From Streptomyces sp. NBC_01775 (lineage in GTDB: Bacteria > Actinomycetota > Actinomycetes > Streptomycetales > Streptomycetaceae), in the NCBI RefSeq assembly GCF_035917675.1, contig NZ_CP109105.1, positions 211,124 through 275,123 on the forward strand: 64,000 nucleotides of DNA, written 5' to 3'. Positions 44,507-64,000 of the stretch are shown in pieces. The position numbers and the translations under genes were made by a program. Numbering within the stretch: the stretch's first letter is position 1; every line of letters begins with the position of its first letter. The notes beneath the pieces were generated by a model. That model worked only from the letters and a program-made list of their open reading frames with translations. It searched no databases and was not told where the DNA came from.

Positions 44507-45097
44507 TCAGCGCCGGGCGTCCAGGTACGAGCGGCGGGCGGTGACCAGGTCGCGCCATCGTGTGTGGACCTGGTCTGGGGGGCCGATCCAGCGGGTGGAG
44601 GCAGATGAGCCGGCGGGCTGCGGGCGGTTGGCCATGAAGTGCGCGATGTCGGCGTAGGAGGCGTAGTCACCCCGGTCGGCTATGGCGTTGAGGTGCTGGA
44701 TGCTGTCGGCGAGCTGCTGCTGATCGTCACGGATGGCGTGGTGGAAGGCGAGGACGAGTTCGACGGTGGCCTCGGCGGCGGTCACGCCGGCGAGCCGGGC
44801 TTCGGTGCGCAGCACCTGGGCACGGTCATCGACGCCGGCTTCGCCGCGTCCGGCGTCCCGGGCGAGGGCGGCGGTGCGCACGGTCAGGGCGGTGGCGCGC
44901 AGATCGAGGCCCTGGAGAAGCACTTCGGCCAGGTCGATCTCGTCGTCGGCGGCCGCGGGGTCGGCGAAGGACAGGACGAGAGCACGCTGGGCCTGGCAGG
45001 TGGCACGCTCGCCGGCGACATCGTGTTCTTCGGCTTCGGCGCGTGCGGCACGGTAGGCGGCGGCCGCGCGGCCGAGGTCACCGTGAGGCCACCACAC
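44507..45097 (-). CDS. TPR-like C-terminal part of zeta-toxin locus
   Basis: The frame contains AAAAYRAARAEAEEHDVAGE, DPAAADDEIDLAEVLLQGLD and later helical pairs typical of tetratricopeptide-like proteins. Coding sense extends upstream of the first ATG to about 45240 (ARIARDFPTGLETARQLGWE), where the zeta-toxin frame loses sense. Either this is the natural C-terminus of the zeta protein after a one-base frameshift, or a separate gene with a hidden start. Confidence 0.6.
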   Translation of the reverse strand: MWWPHGDLGRAAAAYRAARAEAEEHDVAGERATCQAQRALVLSFADPAAADDEIDLAEVLLQGLDLRATALTVRTAALARDAGRGEAGVDDRAQVLRTEARLAGVTAAEATVELVLAFHHAIRDDQQQLADSIQHLNAIADRGDYASYADIAHFMANRPQPAGSSASTRWIGPPDQVHTRWRDLVTARRSYLDARR

Positions 45098-47061
45098 GTC
45101 GCCTTCGACGCGGTGTCCGCGGCCCTCCCAGCCCAGTTGCCGGGCTGTCTCCAGGCCGGTGGGGAAGTCACGGGCGATGCGGGCCAGGTGCGCGATGCCG
45201 CGACGGGCGGCCGGGGCGCGGCGGCCGCCGAGGTGGGCAGATGCCGCAGTACCGGGTGCGGTCGCTCCAGCTGGGGCGGCCGCACCGCTGCGGGCATCAT
45301 CGGCCGGGCCAGCGCCGCGATCTCCTCCAGCTCGGCGCGGTGCTGGGGCAATGCGCGCAGCAGTCCTTGGTGCAGCGTCAGGAAGCGCCGGGCCTCGGTC
45401 TCGGTATAGGGCCGGGACCGTTCGGCAGCCAGCGCCGCGGACGCGTGGGGCGGGGAGCCGGATTCCTGCCGCAGCAGTGCCTGCCCGTTCCGGCCGAGCA
45501 CCGTCAGCGCGGTGACAGCCGGGTGCGTCTGGGCGAGCGCAACGACGTCGTCCAGGGCGCGGTAGCAGGTGTCATGGCCGGCGCGGGAGGTGAAGCGGGC
45601 CGGGATGCCGGCCTGGAGGGCGCGGGCGTATCGCAGCGCAGCAGCCTGCCGGCTGTCGGCCCCTCGCACGGCGAGGACCACCAACTCGATCGGATATCCA
45701 TCGCCCGCGAAAGGCAGGGCGCTGTCGAGGAATTCACCGGTGCTGCCCGGCGCACCTTCGATGAGCACATCCCCGCGTGCGCGCCGCACATACTCCTCAG
45801 CCTCGGCGAACCATGCCCGGTAGTCAGCACGGATCGCCGCCCCGGCGTTTCGAGGATCCTCCGTCAGCAGTTGCAGATAGTCCGGATGCGACGCCTTGAA
45901 GTCGTCACCGAGCAAATGCGCCGTCCCGGGACGCACGGCCCGCTTCACCATCCTGGCCGCCAGCAGTTTTCCCGCCCCCGGCTGGCCCAGCACGTAGACC
46001 CCGCGGGGGTCGTCCCGGCGGACGATGCCACTCAGGTACGACGGTGTGATCAGCTCCTCGAAGACCCACCGGTGTTCCTCGGCCGACAGCCGGTGGTAGT
46101 CCACCCCCGGTGCCTGGCGGCGAGGCTGGGCTATACGGCGGACCGGCTCCGCCCACGCGGCAGCACGCTCGACGTCTCGCTGGACCGCCAGGCGGCGGTC
46201 GTCGCAGGTGAGGTTGCGATGCAGGCGCCGATCAGTGCGTGCCAACTCGCGACGGAAGACGGCGGTCTCCGGCGCGCTCCAGGGCCGGGCGCGGTTCCGG
46301 GTCACCGCCCGGGCCGCGGCCGGGCGTTCCCGACTCCAGGCGCCGTCGACCAGTTCGTTGGCGTAGAGCACGGTGCCGTCGCGGCGCAGCACGGTGACGC
46401 GGTCGGCCAGCTGCTCGGCTTCGATGGCCGCGAGCACTGCGGGCATCCGCTGCGCGCAGGTGTCGTGGTTGTCCCACGACACGTACCGGCCACCGCCCCG
46501 CACCGGCTCGCTGAGGAAACGGTCGAGGATCCCCAGCTGGCTGAGCGCCTCGGGCGTCGCCACCGCCACCACCTCCAGGCGCGCCCCCGCCTCCCGGTAG
46601 GTGGCCGCCGATGCCCGGAACTCACCGATGTCCGCGAGAGCGGATTCGACCACGGCATCGAAACCCCGCTCGCGCACCAGGTCCTCGACGGCCGTCTGCC
46701 AGCGAGAGGTCTCTTCGCGCACCGCCGCGCCCGCGGTGCGCACATCGGCAGCGAGCGCGGCCAGGTAGCCGGGGTGAGCGGCCTTGTACAGGTCGCGGCC
46801 CACCCGCACGGCGCCACCCCGCCGCCGGAGAACAGCTTCGAGCAGATCGGCGATCTGCGTCTTCCCCGCCCCGGGCTGACCTCCGACCACGACGACCACG
46901 GGGCGCTCTTGGCGCACAGCCCCGCTCATAGCGGCCGGAAGGATCACCTGGCGCAGCAGGGCGAGGCTTTCCCGGTCCGTGAGCGCGTCCGGGGCCGGCC
47001 CGTCCACTGAACCGTCTTGCTGCACCAGGTGATCCCTCCGGCCATAGCCCTCAACCCGCAT
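44884..47061 (-). CDS. Zeta-toxin-like kinase with two P-loop domains
   Basis: 725 aa as read; residues after about 610 (past 45240) are out-of-frame. The first zeta domain has a good Walker A (VGGQPGAGKTQIADLL, about residue 60) and HDTCAQRMPAVLAA. The second has VLGQPGAGKLLAARMV (about 357), where the usual Thr/Ser after Lys is Leu, and GHDTCYRALDDVVAL. Zeta toxins phosphorylate UDP-GlcNAc or related sugars and poison cell-wall synthesis. No epsilon antitoxin is recognised next to it. A tandem zeta protein with one degenerate domain could be self-inhibited. Confidence 0.75.
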   Translation of the reverse strand: MRVEGYGRRDHLVQQDGSVDGPAPDALTDRESLALLRQVILPAAMSGAVRQERPVVVVVGGQPGAGKTQIADLLEAVLRRRGGAVRVGRDLYKAAHPGYLAALAADVRTAGAAVREETSRWQTAVEDLVRERGFDAVVESALADIGEFRASAATYREAGARLEVVAVATPEALSQLGILDRFLSEPVRGGGRYVSWDNHDTCAQRMPAVLAAIEAEQLADRVTVLRRDGTVLYANELVDGAWSRERPAAARAVTRNRARPWSAPETAVFRRELARTDRRLHRNLTCDDRRLAVQRDVERAAAWAEPVRRIAQPRRQAPGVDYHRLSAEEHRWVFEELITPSYLSGIVRRDDPRGVYVLGQPGAGKLLAARMVKRAVRPGTAHLLGDDFKASHPDYLQLLTEDPRNAGAAIRADYRAWFAEAEEYVRRARGDVLIEGAPGSTGEFLDSALPFAGDGYPIELVVLAVRGADSRQAAALRYARALQAGIPARFTSRAGHDTCYRALDDVVALAQTHPAVTALTVLGRNGQALLRQESGSPPHASAALAAERSRPYTETEARRFLTLHQGLLRALPQHRAELEEIAALARPMMPAAVRPPQLERPHPVLRHLPTSAAAAPRPPVAASRTWPASPVTSPPAWRQPGNWAGRAADTASKATCGGLTVTSAARPPPTVPHAPKPKNTMSPASVPPARPSVLSSCPSPTPRPPTTRSTWPKCFSRASICAPPP

Positions 47062-48143: not shown

Positions 48144-50432
48144 ATGGATGTGACGCTCTCCCAGGCCCGGGAGCGGTGGAGCGAAGTGGTCGAGCGCCTT
48201 CAGCAGGGCGATCAGGTCGTTTTGACCAACGCCAAGAGCGGTCAAGCAGCTCTGCTGCGCCGCCCTGAGGAGTCGGACCGGGCTCCCGCTGGGACGTGGA
48301 CGAGCACTCGGGCCCGGCAGGAGCTGGGCAGTCTGATCTCCGCGGCCCAGGAGGAGCCGCAGCTTTTGACGGTCGGCGCGCGTCCCGCCGCAATAGTCCT
48401 TCGTCACCAGGCCCCGGCCGGGCAGCCGCAGCGGGAGGCGGAGCCGGGCGTGACCGGGCTCGGCGATGTGCTGGACGGCCTGCTGGAGACCGCTCCGCAG
48501 CACTCGGGGCTGTCGACGGGGGTTGCCGCGCTGGACCGGGCCTGTGGGGGGCTGGCGCGGGGGAGTGTCACGCTGGTGGCCGCGCCGCCGAACGCGGGCG
48601 GGAGCCTGCTGCCCTTGCAGGCCGCGCGTGCGGCAGCGTTCCACTCTGAGCAGCCGACCCCGGTGCTCTATGTCCCCTCCGGGGTGCCGTTGCAGGTCGC
48701 GGCCCGTCGCCTGATCGCGGCCGAAGCTCCGGTGCCCTATGCCCAATTCGCCGCCGGCACTCTCACGGCCGGGCAGCGCCAGGCGGTCCTCGACGCGGAC
48801 AGTCGGCTGCGTGCGGCGCCCCTGTCGTTCACCAGGCCCGAGCCGACCGTGCAGGCGATCACCGAAGAGGCGTCCCGTATCGAGGGGCTGGGTCTGGTGG
48901 TGGTCGACCGGCTTCAGCACGCCCGTGCGGAGGGCACCCCGCTCTCGGGGCGTGCCCTGCCCACAGTGATGACGTCCCTGGCCCGTCTCGCTACCGACCG
49001 GCAGGCCGCCGTGGTCGTACTGCTGGACACCGACGATGCCCAGATCCTGGCCCGTCTGGACGCGGACCGCATCCTTCATCTGACCCGGCCGGGCGACGGT
49101 GCCACGGCCCGGATCACGGTAACCGCGCGGGACCTGGGCACCCTGACGGCCGTGGAAGTGGCGCTGGACATGACCCACCTGCGTCTCCTAGACCAGCCCG
49201 CCCCGCCCGCCCCTTCCACGGCCACACCCGCGACCACACCGGCCCTCCCGGCTCCGGCGCCTCATGCGGGCGCCGCACGCGGACCCGCCCAGACCTCACC
49301 TCCCCCCGCCCCAACCTCCCCCCGTCCCCAGCGCGCTGGAGCGGGCAGCGCAGGTCCCGCCCGCGCGCGTCCGTCAGCCGCGGTACACAAGAACAGCGGT
49401 GCGGTGGCCGGTCTCGTCGAGCGGATCGAGGGCAAGGTCCATACCGTCCTCACCGACACCGGGGGAGAGGTCGAGGAGGCAGTGGCGGCGCTGAAGAAGA
49501 CCGCGATCCCCGATGTGATGGACCTGCTGGACGCGAGCCGGACCGGCGGCCGTTACGACTTCCGCAACTACCCCGACCTGCCCGACATCCTCCACAAGCG
49601 GGGCCGTGAGGAGTCCGACGACATCTGGGAAGCCCGCCCCCACTTCACCGCTCCGCCCGAGGTCCTCGACCAGATCGGCGGCGGCGTGGTCACGGCCCTG
49701 GACATCAACGGTGCCTACCTCAGCGCGCTCAAGGCCCATCTGCCCATCGGGCAGCTCGAACACCACCTGGGCCCGGACGCCGGCGGCCCGGCGCACGACA
49801 CCAAGCGCTCGGGGGTCCACCTGGTCACCCCGCCCGCCTGGGAGCATGCCGACCTGCCGAACCCGATCGGCGACCGGGAAGAGCCCGGTCAGATCTGGAT
49901 CACCGAATCCACGCTCCGTCTCCTGCTGCGCCTGTCCGGCCCGAAGCTCGGCCTGTGCGAGCGGCCGTTGATCCACGAGTCGTGGACGTCGGGGTCGACG
50001 GAGCAGCTACTGGAGACGTTGCGACGGGCGCTGGTGCAGGTGCGTACGAACGCCCTGGTGGCCGGCTCGGCGCACGGGGAGGCGGCGTATGAGTACGTGA
50101 AGGCGATGTACTCCAAGCTGGTCTCCACGATGGGGGAGTCCAACTACAACCGGGACCTGTATCGGAGCGACTGGATGCACATCATCCGCTCCCAGGCGTT
50201 CGCCAACCTGTGGCACAAAGCCTGGAGCGCCCGTCAGGCGGGGCTGACGGTGGTGCGGATGATGGGCACCGACGAACTCCACCTCGCCGGCAACTGGCGC
50301 ACCGCGCGGGCGGCCGGGAAGGATACGCCGCTGTTCCCGGAAGGGCGTGAAGTCACCGAGGTCAAGCCCAAGCAGCTCTACCGGCTTGAGAAGGTGGCCG
50401 AGGGCAGCTATCGCGAACGAGAGGCGGACTGA
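48144..50432 (+). CDS. Tap-like telomere protein with Phd-like and degenerate RecA-like domains
   Basis: 762 aa; ATG 48144 with GAGGAGG 5 nt upstream. Residues 1-60 are a Phd/YefM-like DNA-binding domain (MDVTLSQARERWSEVVERLQ). Residues 110-350 look like a DnaB/RecA-type ATPase whose Walker A is degenerate (VAAPPNAGGS, about 146); LGLVVVDRLQ stands for Walker B. After a Pro/Ala linker, residues 410-760 resemble the polymerase core of Tap: ALDINGAYLSALKAHLPIG (about 515), YVKAMYSKLVSTMG (about 652) and VRMMGTDELHL (about 703), in the order of family-B-like motifs A, B and C with one Asp in C. Next gene is 18 bp downstream. Proposed role: priming or extending telomere ends. Confidence 0.65.
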   Translation: MDVTLSQARERWSEVVERLQQGDQVVLTNAKSGQAALLRRPEESDRAPAGTWTSTRARQELGSLISAAQEEPQLLTVGARPAAIVLRHQAPAGQPQREAEPGVTGLGDVLDGLLETAPQHSGLSTGVAALDRACGGLARGSVTLVAAPPNAGGSLLPLQAARAAAFHSEQPTPVLYVPSGVPLQVAARRLIAAEAPVPYAQFAAGTLTAGQRQAVLDADSRLRAAPLSFTRPEPTVQAITEEASRIEGLGLVVVDRLQHARAEGTPLSGRALPTVMTSLARLATDRQAAVVVLLDTDDAQILARLDADRILHLTRPGDGATARITVTARDLGTLTAVEVALDMTHLRLLDQPAPPAPSTATPATTPALPAPAPHAGAARGPAQTSPPPAPTSPRPQRAGAGSAGPARARPSAAVHKNSGAVAGLVERIEGKVHTVLTDTGGEVEEAVAALKKTAIPDVMDLLDASRTGGRYDFRNYPDLPDILHKRGREESDDIWEARPHFTAPPEVLDQIGGGVVTALDINGAYLSALKAHLPIGQLEHHLGPDAGGPAHDTKRSGVHLVTPPAWEHADLPNPIGDREEPGQIWITESTLRLLLRLSGPKLGLCERPLIHESWTSGSTEQLLETLRRALVQVRTNALVAGSAHGEAAYEYVKAMYSKLVSTMGESNYNRDLYRSDWMHIIRSQAFANLWHKAWSARQAGLTVVRMMGTDELHLAGNWRTARAAGKDTPLFPEGREVTEVKPKQLYRLEKVAEGSYREREAD

Positions 50433-50450
50433 CGGATGCCGGAGCGCACC

Positions 50451-51026
50451 ATGCAGTTCGGCCTCTACGGCGCGCGAGGCCGCAAGAGCGCCGACCTCGC
50501 CGGCGAGGTCCTCGACAAGCTGGCGATGGAGGGCGGCATCCGCTCACCCGTCACCAGCCGCCGGGGCCTGGGCGCCCGGCTCAACTACCTCACCCGCTCC
50601 GACGCCGGACGCCAGGCGATGGCAGAGGCCGGGATCACCGTCACCCGCCGCACGCTGCGCAACTGGCTCCAGCACAAACAAAGCCCCTCCCGCGACAACC
50701 TTGCCCGGATCGACGCGGCCTACCGTGCCCACCGCCGCCGTAACGTGGCCCCTCACCTGTTGCAGCGGCTCAACGCCCGCGGGGGGACCCGGGTGGAGAT
50801 CCAGCCGCTGGACCAGCGCGCCGTGGCGGACCCCCGCAAGCGGCACATCGCTACCGACCGGGCTGACTTCCGTCGGCTTCGGATCCGCACCTGGGACCGC
50901 ATCGTGGAAGCCTGGGCGGCCCAGGACGAGGCCGCGCTCGCCGATGCGTGGGATGACCAGCTCACCGACCTGGGATCCCAGTGGGGCCAGTACGAGTACG
51001 CCACCTCCGTCGGCTTCTCCGCCTGA
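50451..51026 (+). CDS. Putative terminal-protein-like DNA-binding protein
   Basis: 191 aa from ATG 50451 (CGGAG 7 nt upstream; ATG 50436 is the alternative). The size matches the archetypal terminal protein Tpg (about 185 aa). An HTH lies at TVTRRTLRNWLQHKQSPSRD, preceded by RRGLGARLNYLTRSDAG; the second half has TRVEIQPLDQ and WDRIVEAWAAQDEAALADAW and ends SQWGQYEYATSVGF. It always follows a Tap-like gene in this layout here, as tpg follows tap. I infer that it is the protein attached to, or recognising, the telomere ends; a plain regulator is the alternative. Confidence 0.55.
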   Translation: MQFGLYGARGRKSADLAGEVLDKLAMEGGIRSPVTSRRGLGARLNYLTRSDAGRQAMAEAGITVTRRTLRNWLQHKQSPSRDNLARIDAAYRAHRRRNVAPHLLQRLNARGGTRVEIQPLDQRAVADPRKRHIATDRADFRRLRIRTWDRIVEAWAAQDEAALADAWDDQLTDLGSQWGQYEYATSVGFSA

Positions 51027-51063
51027 CAGCCACGGACCGGCAAAAGGGGAGGGATCAGCAGGC

Positions 51064-53676
51064 ATGGAGAAGGAAGACAGCACGGGCAGCCCCCTGGAGC
51101 TGCGCCTCCGGCAGAAGGAAGCCGTCGACGCGGCCGTCTTCGCACTGGAGGCACCGCCTGGCGGTATTCCCGCGGCCGGTCTGCGTACTCAGGTGGTCGC
51201 CGCCCCTGGGTCGGGCAAGACGCTGGTCGCCTACGAGGTGGCCCGCCGGACCGTGCCGCGCGGCCGTGTCCTGGTCCTGGTCCCGACACTCAACCTGCTG
51301 GTACAGACGGTCACCAAATGGCGCGAGTACGGCATGCGTGGCCAAGCGGTCGCGGTCTGCTCCCTGGACCGCGACCCTGAGGTGCGCGCGTATCTGGCGG
51401 ACGAGCTGGATGTGCGGTGCACGACCAACCCGATCCGGCTGGCGATGTGGGCGGGCACCGGCCCCGTGACGATCTTCGCCACCTACGCGTCTCTGGTGGG
51501 CAACTCCGGCCGTCCCACCGACGACACTGACGTCGACGTCGACGAGGCCGCGGCCGAAGGAGAAGCAGTCGAGGAGCGCGCCGTTGCCGGCGTCCTGGAG
51601 CGCGCGCTGGCCGGGAACTTCGGGCAGCAGCTGGACGGGTTCGGCCTGGCGGTCGTGGATGAGGCGCACCGCACCGCGGGCCTCGCGTCGAAGCCGTGGG
51701 CGGTCATCCACGACAACACGCGTATCCCGGCCGACCGGCGCCTGTACATGACCGCCACGCCCCGCATCTGGGAAACCGGCGGCACCGGCTCCGACGGCGG
51801 GGGCGGTGAGGTGCTGGTGGCGTCGATGGACGACGAGGCCCTCTACGGCAAGCCCGCGTTCGTCTATCCCCTCGGCCAGGCCATCGAGGAAGGTGTACTG
51901 GCCTCCTTCGAGATCGACGTCCTGGAGATCCGCGACCCCGCACCCCCCGGCGACGACGCGAGCCTGGAGGAGCGCCGGGGGATGCGGCTGGGCGCGATCC
52001 GTGCCGCCGCCCTCGCTCACATGGAAACCGCCGGCGTCGTCAGCCTGCTGTCTTTCCACTCCCGCACCCAGGAGGCCCTCTCCTTCGCCCGTGGCCTGCC
52101 CGACGCCGCCGACGAGCTGCGCGCCGCCGGGCGCTTCCCCGGGGAGATCTGGGGGGAGTGGCTGTGCGGCCTCCACCCGGCAGCCCACCAGCGCGCCGTC
52201 CTCGACCAGATCGCGAACGGGGTGGACGCCGAAGGGCACAAGACCGAGTTCCGCATCCTGTGCACCTGTCGGCTGCTGGGGGAGGGCACCGACATCACCG
52301 GACGGTGCGGCCTGGACGGCGTGCTGTTCGCCGACGTGCGCAGCTCACCGGTGGATATCGTCCAGTCCGTCGGTCGCGCCCTGCGCCAGGCCCCGCACGA
52401 GGGCAAGGTCGCACGGCTGGTCGTGCCCGTCCTCCTGGCCGAGGAGGACGAGGGCCGGGACATGGCCGCAACGGCCGCGTTCGAGCCCCTGGTGAAGGTC
52501 CTTCGCGCACTGCGCTCCTTCGACCCGCGCATCATCGAACAGCTCTCACTGCGTCCCGCAGGACGCCGCAGCGGGACAGCGGAAGACACACTCGCCGCCG
52601 ACCCGCACGGAGACGCCCGCCAGACCGGCACCGAGCCCGCCGCCGAGGACGCCGAGCCGGCCGACGACCACGGCCCGGCGCAGGAGCCGGCCCGCGAGCT
52701 GCCCCTGCTGCACTTCTCCGACCGGGGCCGGGACGCCGAGGAGATCGCCCGGCTGGTGCGCACCCGCGTCCTGCGCCCGGAGTCCACCGCCTGGCTCACC
52801 GGCCTGGAGGCCGTCCGCACCTTCGCCGCCGGGCACGGGCACGCCAACGTCCCCTATACCGCCACCGTCCACCTCGGCGACCAGGCCGTGGACTATCAGG
52901 TGGGCCAGTTCGCGTCCGAGCAGCGCCGCGCCTGGCGACACGGGGACCTGGCCGACTGGCGAACCGAACTGCTGGCCGAGACGGGCTTTGTCTTCGACCC
53001 CCGCGACCAGGCGTTCACCGAGTTCCTGGACGTGTGCGCCCTCTACTTCGCCGGACACCACACCCTCGCCGCCCCGCGGGATGCGGTGCTGGCCGGGGTG
53101 GCGGTCGGGGAGCGCCTGCACCAGGTGCGCAAACCTGGCGGCCTGGGCAAGAAGCGCGCCACAGCCCGGCGCGAGCGGCTGGAGGCCATCGACCCGGACT
53201 GGAACCCCGCCTGGCCCCTGACCTGGCAGCGCCACTACGCGAAGGCCCGCTGGCTCCTCTCCCAGGGCGCTACCCCCGGCGAGCTCCAGCCCGGCGTCCA
53301 CCTCGGCGGCGACGACGTCGGCGCCTGGCTGGCCGAACAGCCCGCCGCCTGGCACACCCTCACCGACGGCCAGCAGCAGCGCCTGGCCGCGCTGGGGATC
53401 GGCCCCGCCCCGGCCGGGGCCCTCCCCGCGGCCGTGGCCCCTCCCGCCGGGGCCTCCCGGTGGGAGATCAACCTCGCCGCCGCCCGACAGTTCAAGGCCC
53501 GCGAGGGCCACCTGCGGGTCCCGCGCGCCCACACCGAGACCGTCACCGGCGCCGACGGTAGGGAGCACCGCATCCGGCTGGGCGTCTTCCGCAGCAACAC
53601 CCGCACCCACCACAACCAGCACAAACTCACCTCCGAGCAGGCACGCGAGGCCCGCACCATCGGGCTCCTGCAGTGA
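51064..53676 (+). CDS. Superfamily 2 helicase with helicase-associated domains
   Basis: 870 aa; ATG 51064 after AGGGGAGGG. Motifs in order: Walker A VVAAPGSGKTLVA (about 45), DEAH box LAVVDEAHRT (about 197), motif III MTATPR (about 229), and motif VI IVQSVGRALRQ (about 433). The C-terminal third has two helicase-associated (HA) units (WLTGLEAVRTFAAGHGHANV, about 577; WEINLAAARQFKAREGHLRV, about 800). Such helicases are frequent at Streptomyces chromosome and plasmid ends. Placed directly behind the Tap-like and Tpg-like genes, it may open or remodel telomere ends during replication or transfer. Confidence 0.85.
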   Translation: MEKEDSTGSPLELRLRQKEAVDAAVFALEAPPGGIPAAGLRTQVVAAPGSGKTLVAYEVARRTVPRGRVLVLVPTLNLLVQTVTKWREYGMRGQAVAVCSLDRDPEVRAYLADELDVRCTTNPIRLAMWAGTGPVTIFATYASLVGNSGRPTDDTDVDVDEAAAEGEAVEERAVAGVLERALAGNFGQQLDGFGLAVVDEAHRTAGLASKPWAVIHDNTRIPADRRLYMTATPRIWETGGTGSDGGGGEVLVASMDDEALYGKPAFVYPLGQAIEEGVLASFEIDVLEIRDPAPPGDDASLEERRGMRLGAIRAAALAHMETAGVVSLLSFHSRTQEALSFARGLPDAADELRAAGRFPGEIWGEWLCGLHPAAHQRAVLDQIANGVDAEGHKTEFRILCTCRLLGEGTDITGRCGLDGVLFADVRSSPVDIVQSVGRALRQAPHEGKVARLVVPVLLAEEDEGRDMAATAAFEPLVKVLRALRSFDPRIIEQLSLRPAGRRSGTAEDTLAADPHGDARQTGTEPAAEDAEPADDHGPAQEPARELPLLHFSDRGRDAEEIARLVRTRVLRPESTAWLTGLEAVRTFAAGHGHANVPYTATVHLGDQAVDYQVGQFASEQRRAWRHGDLADWRTELLAETGFVFDPRDQAFTEFLDVCALYFAGHHTLAAPRDAVLAGVAVGERLHQVRKPGGLGKKRATARRERLEAIDPDWNPAWPLTWQRHYAKARWLLSQGATPGELQPGVHLGGDDVGAWLAEQPAAWHTLTDGQQQRLAALGIGPAPAGALPAAVAPPAGASRWEINLAAARQFKAREGHLRVPRAHTETVTGADGREHRIRLGVFRSNTRTHHNQHKLTSEQAREARTIGLLQ

Positions 53677-54152
53677 CTGGTGACTGGCGGACGGATCGGA
53701 TCGGAAGTGCGCTGCGCCGTGAAAACCCTGCGGTGCTGCGGCGCTTGAATGCGGGGTTCGCCGCGATAGGCGATGTGCAGTTCCTGCCGGGCTACTCGGT
53801 GCTCCTGGTGGATGACCCCCAGGTGGAGAGGCTGTCGGACTTGCCCGGGGACAAGAGGCTGGCATTCCTGTCCGACATGGACCGGCTCGGAGAGGCAGTC
53901 GAGCGAGCATCCCGTCGCATGGACGCTGCCTTCCGGCGGGTCAATCTGGAAATCCTCGGCAACACCGAAAGGTACTTGCACGCGCACGTGTGGCCACGGT
54001 TCGAGTGGGAGCCCGCCGACATGGTTGGCAGGCCCGTGTGGCTCTACCCCCGCGACCGGTGGTCCGACGAGCGATTCGCACTTGGTCCGCAGCACGACCT
54101 GCTGCGTCGGGCGATCGGAGAGGAGCTGGACCGTCTGTGCTCGGCGAACTGA
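53673..54152 (+). CDS. HIT-like nucleotide-binding protein
   Basis: 159 aa from GTG 53673, overlapping the helicase stop (GTGA). VQFLPGYSVLLVDDPQVERL and FRRVNLEILGNTERYLHAHV followed by WPRF give the HIT-type H-x-H-x-x core in HAHVW. HIT proteins hydrolyse or transfer nucleotides, for example diadenosine polyphosphates or adenylylated DNA ends. It is in an operon with the helicase; removal of nucleotidyl adducts at DNA ends would make sense here but is speculation. Confidence 0.75.
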   Translation: MTGDWRTDRIGSALRRENPAVLRRLNAGFAAIGDVQFLPGYSVLLVDDPQVERLSDLPGDKRLAFLSDMDRLGEAVERASRRMDAAFRRVNLEILGNTERYLHAHVWPRFEWEPADMVGRPVWLYPRDRWSDERFALGPQHDLLRRAIGEELDRLCSAN

Positions 54153-63780: not shown

Positions 63781-63822
63781 CGAACCGTGGCCGAGCTCTT
63801 TTCTTCGTGGCCCGCCAGCGCA

Positions 63823-63982
63823 GCCCCGGAGGGGCGCGCCTTCACCCCGGCCAGCTGCAGGCCGTGATGGCTCAAAGCAACAGGCCGCGAGGCCAGTTGG
63901 CCCGGCCGGAGGCCGGGACCCCGTCCCCGGAGGGGACGGACTGGCGCCCGGAGGACACCAGAGCCCCGCCTCGTAGAGGCGG
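63823..63982 (+). repeat. Telomere-like array of short hairpins
   Basis: Perfect hairpins on the plus strand: GCCCC-GGA-GGGGC (63823-63835), GGCC-GCGA-GGCC (63883-63894), CCCGGCC-GGA-GGCCGGG (63901-63917), CCGTCCCC-GGA-GGGGACGG (63921-63939) and CCGCCTC-GTA-GAGGCGG (63966-63982). An imperfect one with a GGA loop lies at 63941-63961. Tandem small palindromes with purine-rich GNA loops are the hallmark of Streptomyces telomeres, where the 3' strand folds back. At a right-hand end the plus strand is the 3'-ending strand. The last bases, complement GCCCGCAGA, also suit a telomere tip. Confidence 0.75.
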
Positions 63983-64000
63983 CGCGTCGTGTCTGCGGGC

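Follow-up and report, generated by a model that had tools for sequence, protein, structure and literature searches.

A putative Tap/terminal-protein operon with a DnaB-like module near the Sg2247-type right end of a linear plasmid in Streptomyces sp. NBC_01775

Streptomyces sp. NBC_01775 (genome G000) carries a 275-kb linear plasmid, C2 (275,123 bp), whose last 64 kb (G000:C2:211124-275123) form the 64,000-nucleotide window analysed here; window base 64000 is the last base of the plasmid. A cluster of four genes lies about 10-16 kb from its right end. The locus is best read as a divergent, non-archetypal operon of a Tap-like protein and a terminal protein (TP), most likely of the GtpB-GtpA kind known from S. 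griseus, in which a DnaB-like N-terminus would replace the usual helix-turn-helix (HTH). The features are as follows.

48144..50432, + strand: Tap-like protein (gene 1), 762 aa, with a Phd-like N-terminus, a predicted inactive DnaB/RecA-like domain, a Pro-rich linker and a Tap-like core
48294..48401, + strand: Phd/YefM-like segment of gene 1, residues 51-86, the best of two reported stretches that are possibly in tandem
48507..49022, + strand: DnaB_C-like domain of gene 1, residues 122-293, with a degenerate Walker A at residues 147-154 and a retained Walker B Asp255
49425..50387, + strand: Tap-like core of gene 1, residues 428-748, with candidate motif A (D520), motif B (651-664) and motif C (T709-D710-E711)
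50436..51026, + strand: putative TP (gene 2), 196 aa (or 191 aa from 50451), with candidate priming residue T118 in the 196-aa numbering
51064..53676, + strand: TtrA-type superfamily 2 (SF2) helicase (gene 3) with HA repeats, 870 aa
53673..54152, + strand: HIT-like protein (gene 4), 159 aa, a probable bystander
63821..64000, no strand: right telomere, a run of hairpins at the replicon end
63980..64000, - strand: terminal motif GCCCGCAGACACGACGCGCCG read inward, Sg2247-type, subtype A

The original prediction, made from the letters of the window alone, had described four tightly spaced genes on one strand, and the open reading frames (ORFs) are as claimed: 48144-50432 (762 aa), 50451-51026 (191 aa), 51064-53676 (870 aa) and 53673-54152 (159 aa), with gaps of 18 and 37 bp followed by a 4-bp overlap. 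An alternative ATG at 50436, the start annotated in plasmid NBC_01186, gives a gene 2 of 196 aa and a first gap of 3 bp. The two-gene unit of a Tap-type and a TP gene is found here and in related loci. Translated matches to gene 1 occur in 161 plasmid records, 142 of them from Streptomyces, and the few records outside the family range (e.g., Lactococcus and Nostoc) probably match the DnaB part alone; at the protein level, 1390 relatives at E <= 0.001 were obtained among 8000 scored proteins. Among the 17 best plasmid records for gene 1, the gene lies within 30 kb of the record end in 11. A second copy (93%) of its first 54 bases is located elsewhere on the plasmid, at G000:C2:189556-189609.

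All three motifs quoted in the original prediction, including YSKLVSTMG and MMGTDEL, are present in gene 1. The chromosome C1 of the same strain (9,061,594 bp) has terminal repeats of 22.9 kb at 99.98% identity, which fit a linear chromosome, and in both repeats, 16 kb from the ends, it encodes a 576-aa protein (HTH, Pro-rich part and core) together with a 196-aa protein; the gene 1 core is 51% identical to the 576-aa protein over 325 aa. Archetypal Tap of pSV2 and SLP2 gave no match to the core by BLAST. A profile of the core, compared with that of five archetypal Taps, reached a local score of 48.2 (E 1.8e-5 as a single comparison, probability 78%), against 14.9 for the reversed control and 26.3 for the best of 30 column shuffles. 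The local alignment spans gene 1 residues 474-695 and includes motif A (ALDINGAYLSAL aligned with GIDVNMAFAAG), the LPxP...E..GP.W..T stretch and W...IR...NL; it ends before motif C, which a forced global alignment of only 10% probability does reach, with the two Asp one column apart. From the profile comparison, gene 1 is therefore most likely a remote homologue of archetypal Tap. The Tap-like core proposed earlier is upheld by a local match above its controls, but the third of its polymerase-like motifs falls outside that alignment and the global probability is low; the family-B-like motifs fit the conserved residues and are unproven.

Gene 2, which had been said to possess the size and HTH of a terminal protein, shows clear family homology to the chromosomal 196-aa protein (40% identity over 203 aa), and its Pfam signal is a weak generic HTH match alone (E 0.17). 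Its similarity to archetypal Tpg covers the HTH region only, at 28% over 78 aa for SLP2 (E 2e-4) and 22.6% over 62 aa for pSV2 (E 0.002), and this comparison rules out a plain Tpg. Gene 2 is called a TP because of its operon context, its size, its HTH and its co-variation with the telomere. The priming residue of Tpg is T114, for which Ser can substitute (PMC3572947). Position T118 of gene 2, occupied among 260 TPs by Thr in 258, by Ser in one and by Ile in one, is the predicted priming residue.

The right end of C2, read inward, starts with GCCCGCAGACACGACGCGCCG and continues in hairpins, and its last 180 nt folded as DNA reach -58.6 kcal/mol (z -3.6), a value attained by 1 of 200 shuffles; telomere-like hairpins about 10 kb from the cluster had been correctly noted. 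Of 392 Streptomyces genomes, four contain the pattern GCCCGSASACAYGACGCGCCG, this one among them; the pattern begins at the last contig base in three and is internal in the fourth (L020). The species collection contains the related pattern AGACRYGACGCGCCGNNNCTAC in 63 stretches. No more than 60 bp separate 54 of these from a contig end, and these 54 end loci all belong to Streptomyces or Kitasatospora; of the remaining nine, L070 lies 79 bp from an end, two Streptomyces stretches (L084 and L046) lie deeper in the contig and six come from other organisms. The motif is also present at the ends of pSHJG1 and of the S. cattleyicolor NRRL 8057 plasmid, which we take to be pSCAT. In pSHJG1 it stands at the left end of CP003276.1, with archetypal sequence at the right end. 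Both plasmids are listed as Sg2247 replicons in PMC8743542, where the Sg2247 end of pSHJG1 is placed on the right-hand side. Judged by its terminal motif, the right end of C2 is an Sg2247-type telomere, and it lacks the archetypal start CCCGCGGAGCGGG.

Two telomere subtypes were distinguished by eye, A (AGACACGACGCGCCGCCGCTACGCGGCGG and close forms, the window among them) and B (AGACATGACGCGCCGTCACTAC.GTGACGG; 7 of the 54 end loci). Twelve end loci out of the 54 begin exactly 18 nt before the AGAC of the motif; three assemblies, including that of the window, therefore probably stop inside the first palindrome, and GCCCG is doubtful as the exact terminal base. Two further replicons deserve mention. 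Plasmid pKP058 of K. purpeofusca (AP028456.1, L017), deposited as circular, begins with bases that resemble a type-B telomere hairpin and is possibly linear, with a Tap/TP pair 1.3-4.6 kb from that hairpin. The left end of an S. anulatus plasmid (CP108694.1, L097) bears yet another type of end, GACGCACGACCCTACGGGTCGT, accompanied by an HTH-Tap, a TP and a helicase of its own.

The TP clade follows the telomere subtype. In the TP tree, all 13 type-A rows fall into one clade (SH-aLRT 99) and all five type-B rows into another (94). These counts pass over two rows without an assigned end type and nine rows consisting of protein only, and L017 is assigned to B by its hairpin alone; L054, a B end with a partial TP, and L070, an A end whose TP is in two pieces, are excluded from the tree itself. 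Of the 54 end loci, 9 with an A end and 4 with a B end include a TP gene within the analysed stretch, as does L070. S. seoulensis and genome G300 combine an A telomere with an A-clade TP, and a search of both at E <= 0.001 returned no archetypal Tpg. Among plasmids, the Sg2247 motif lies no more than 150 bp from the record end in 42 of the best 60 of 85 records and the archetypal end in 55 of the best 60 of 63, leaving 40 Sg2247-only and 53 archetypal-only plasmids once two records bearing both end types are set aside. The best 60 of 150 records for the window TP include 28 of the 40 Sg2247-only plasmids and 0 of the 53 archetypal-only ones (Fisher p 1.2e-14, p-values being too good here because the NBC plasmids are related and only the best 60 records were compared), while the best 60 of 395 records for archetypal TP include 0 of the 40 and 15 of the 53. 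Moreover, the chromosome's own end weakly matches the ends of three Streptomyces plasmids (E 2e-4, 0.009 and 0.4), and all three are among the top seven for the chromosomal TP.

We consider it likely, from the sequence comparisons above, that genes 1 and 2 are a Tap-like/TP pair that primes and caps the Sg2247-type right end, but several observations weigh against this. Twelve of the 40 Sg2247-only plasmids are outside the best 60 for the window TP; four of the twelve (H19, H34, H42 and H59) have an HTH-type Tap 57-60% like the gene 1 core, and four come from strains with another plasmid inside the best 60. The remaining four plasmids (CP061282, CP108461, CP108483 and CP109451) carry a TP that is listed with the chromosomal TP's relatives, and they speak against a strict rule linking clade and telomere. 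SirexAA-E bears an A telomere but also an archetypal Tpg, pSHJG1 gave no match to the window TP (the plasmid was searched, its chromosome was not), and the TP gene of S. seoulensis lies 1.03 Mb from the nearer end. In addition, sequence searches of Pfam, PHROGs and PDB with the core, at the thresholds applied, found no polymerase relatives, and TP and archetypal Tpg profiles match in the HTH only, with a probability of 5%.

The N-terminal part of gene 1 had been described as a Phd-type domain followed by a RecA/DnaB-like domain with a ruined Walker A, and this description holds. The Phd match in Pfam (E 7e-6, 26.1 bits) is under the cut-off of 29.8, and that of TIGR01552 (23.2 bits) is over its cut-off of 20.8; DnaB_C is matched at E 7e-15 with the degenerate Walker A APPNAGGS, and the RecA-like domain matches the DnaB structure 2q6t by sequence at E 4.6e-10. 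An alignment of 100 DnaB-type rows, including the window protein and picked by similarity to gene 1, retains the Walker B Asp in all 100. One row has a gap at the Walker A Lys, and none of the other 99 has the Lys (Ser in 51, Gly in 34, Ala in 13, Thr in 1); the Glu of the DnaB SLE motif, which is the catalytic residue, is present in none of the 100 (Gly 94, Arg 3, Gln 3). Going by these positions, the DnaB-like module is catalytically dead.

This architecture is non-archetypal, as had been supposed, but it is not peculiar to the locus. In a core tree of 99 rows, left after the removal of 31 near-copies or partial rows and likewise sampled by similarity to gene 1, 76 rows are DnaB-type (L065 being labelled so although the stretch cuts off its N-terminus), and the annotated lengths of genes related to gene 1 reach 1601 and 1947 aa. 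The tree requires four changes between DnaB and HTH N-termini, and its starred branches force four; the window clade groups with HTH-type cores, and P0024 has its core in the A group and its DnaB domain nested in the B group. In these trees of core and DnaB domain, both obtained by quick searches with long-branch warnings, DnaB-like and HTH N-termini alternate on related Tap cores. That the DnaB-like module sets the telomere type is disfavoured: core, TP and telomere of the window are all of type A, yet DnaB-type Taps stand at type-B ends as well (L019, L017, L043 and L088).

The remaining two genes had been regarded as added parts of the system; the helicase proves to be a homologue of the known telomere-proximal TtrA family. 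Gene 3 encodes an SF2 helicase in which four HA stretches were recognised; over 921 aa it shares 41.5% identity with the SLP2 helicase taken for TtrA (annotated only as DEAD/DEAH box helicase), and it is 42% and 37% identical to the helicases adjoining the two ends of pSHJG1. It lies 10-13 kb from the end and is transcribed outward, instead of adjoining the telomere and being transcribed inward as expected of ttrA. Gene 4 matches HIT below the cut-off (E 0.0026) and is present in plasmid NBC_01186; searches of the 63 telomere-pattern loci (each at most 8 kb; E 1e-6) and of the related loci L016-L019 (four loci, E 1e-4) found no match, so the gene is probably a bystander and the HIT protein is rejected as a part of the system. 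The earlier proposal of an atypical telomere-maintenance operon accordingly survives for a Tap/TP pair close to a linear replicon end, without the HIT gene. A probable TtrA-like remnant is located on the chromosome at G000:C1:9033894-9035120 (L012:12300-13526), where the sequence agrees with residues 332-732 of gene 3 at 82% identity. The opposite strand carries, some 1.1 kb upstream of gene 1, a gene (window 44884-47061) whose NBC_01186 counterpart is annotated as zeta toxin family.

The two ends of C2 are of different kinds. Its left 8,992 bp are 99.96% identical to the chromosome ends, which differ in sequence from the right end. In plasmid NBC_01186 the left end, too, bears the Sg2247 motif; this plasmid shares the right 12 kb with C2 at 99.99%, and its first 20 kb match C2 from 7,906 bp inward at 99.15%. 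At the point where C2 switches, chromosome and NBC_01186 share 1.1 kb at 91.8%. The simplest reading is that a single crossover gave C2 its chromosomal left end. A switch at a stretch common to both replicons and the near-identity of the left 8,992 bp with the chromosome would also fit an assembly chimera in which a chromosome end was misjoined to the plasmid. We regard this as possible though less likely, as a few bases close to the tip distinguish C2 from C1 and hybrid replicons have been published (PMC7205883, PMC8743542); the right end and the operon would be unaffected in any case. As assembled, C2 joins one chromosome-type and one Sg2247-type end and offers a natural test of specificity within one cell. 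Chromosome C1 further encodes an archetypal-like Tpg (G000:C1:9024877-9025733, L012:3283-4139; 48-49% to SLP2), preceded by a match to the last 102 aa only of archetypal Tap, an arrangement similar to the set called 'type II' in PMC7205883.

An intact related pair in both chromosomal terminal repeats, together with published plasmids without a pair of their own (PMC8743542), raises the question whether the chromosomal pair maintains the right end and genes 1 and 2 are redundant or decaying passengers. This seems improbable given that the ORFs are intact, that the pair occurs at 100% identity in two other plasmids, that the TP clade tracks the telomere subtype and that chromosome ends and plasmid right end differ. 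Database names such as 'transcriptional regulator' and, for relatives, 'prevent-host-death family antitoxin', the Phd and HTH matches and the zeta-toxin-family gene upstream might instead suggest a toxin-antitoxin or regulatory operon, with Phd/HTH repressors beside a DnaB-like replication protein. We give this very little credence, since all four genes lack a toxin-family match, the upstream gene is outside the operon, the Tap-like core is conserved and the family is associated with replicon ends. A third alternative concerns novelty: if the pair belongs to the S. griseus GtpB-GtpA family, only the Sg2247 link and the DnaB-like module would be new. This we think rather probable. Among the matches listed, four S. 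griseus-named protein clusters are 83-85% identical to an S. anulatus TP of the gene 2 family, and four TPs belonging to this family have a global identity of 21-23% to SLP2 Tpg, near the 18% quoted for GtpA against archetypal Tpg (PMC7205883). Homologues of GtpA/GtpB (SGR_RS00470/475) at ~50% identity are reported in all 11 strains of that study, some of them with SirexAA-E-like ends (PMC7205883).

For a Tap-like/TP pair acting at the right end, the following course may be envisaged. Replication would leave a 3' overhang that folds into hairpins, the Tap-like protein would bind this folded overhang and position the TP, and its C-terminal core would attach the initial nucleotides to a Thr/Ser in the TP, predicted to be T118; the short protein-linked primer would then be extended by host polymerase. 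The Phd segment and inactive DnaB-like N-terminus might serve as a non-motor docking module in place of the usual HTH, and the downstream TtrA-type helicase may clear Tap or hairpins for extension. The biochemistry and both the docking and helicase roles are what we infer.

More tentatively still, a joint reading could be proposed, in which the Tap core and TP, rather than the N-terminal module, set telomere identity in Streptomyces, and the N-terminus is swappable, being either an HTH or Phd plus a dead DnaB-like domain. Such a dead module may act as an inactive ring or docked on host DnaB, and may load the end-patching complex behind the arriving fork. On this reading the Tap core would be a diverged protein-primed polymerase whose active site, with D520 (motif A) and D710 (motif C), resembles that of family B, and gene 1 and archetypal Tap would have at least motif A in common. 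An Asp motif kept across two families that BLAST does not join points to the active site of Tap. For Sg2247 ends, the locus and its relatives provide a candidate protein pair along with predictions of the priming residue and the catalytic positions, so that the question of the Sg2247 proteins reduces to a short set of experiments.

Compared with known systems, the archetypal Tap-Tpg of pSV2, SLP2 and S. lividans has the operon order, the sizes, the HTH of the TP and the local core profile match in common with the window locus, and the profile comparison places gene 1 as a remote homologue; it differs in its telomere, in an HTH instead of a DnaB-like N-terminus, and in the absence of BLAST-level similarity to the core or the TP body. 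Archetypal Tap is required and sufficient to deoxynucleotidylate Tpg in vitro and was reported as a polymerase without recognisable polymerase motifs (PMC4513846). The DnaB replicative helicase shares the RecA-like domain by sequence, but its Walker A Lys and SLE Glu, the residues expected of such a helicase, are absent here; nor does the four-gene operon contain the partner toxin of a type II toxin-antitoxin system. TtrA of SLP2 is homologous to gene 3 over its full length, but gene 3 stands directly downstream of the TP gene and is transcribed towards the end, whereas published ttrA is usually transcribed inward (PMC8743542). The Tap-like protein of pRL2 is also said to resemble a helicase (PMC8743542), a likeness by description only. 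Sg2247-type telomeres share their terminal motif with the C2 right end (PMC8743542); according to this 2021 survey, no Tap- or Tpg-like proteins were found in genomes with such telomeres and the proteins were called elusive. Among the papers listed by a literature search that covered few subscription journals, none links particular proteins to Sg2247 ends or reports a DnaB-like Tap. GtpB-GtpA of S. griseus IFO13350, reportedly described by Suzuki et al. in 2008, is likewise an operon of a Tap-type and a TP gene, with a TP distantly like Tpg. S. griseus 13350 has another telomere class (PMC8743542), and the family of genes 1 and 2 is, as far as the protein comparisons indicate, probably that of GtpB-GtpA.

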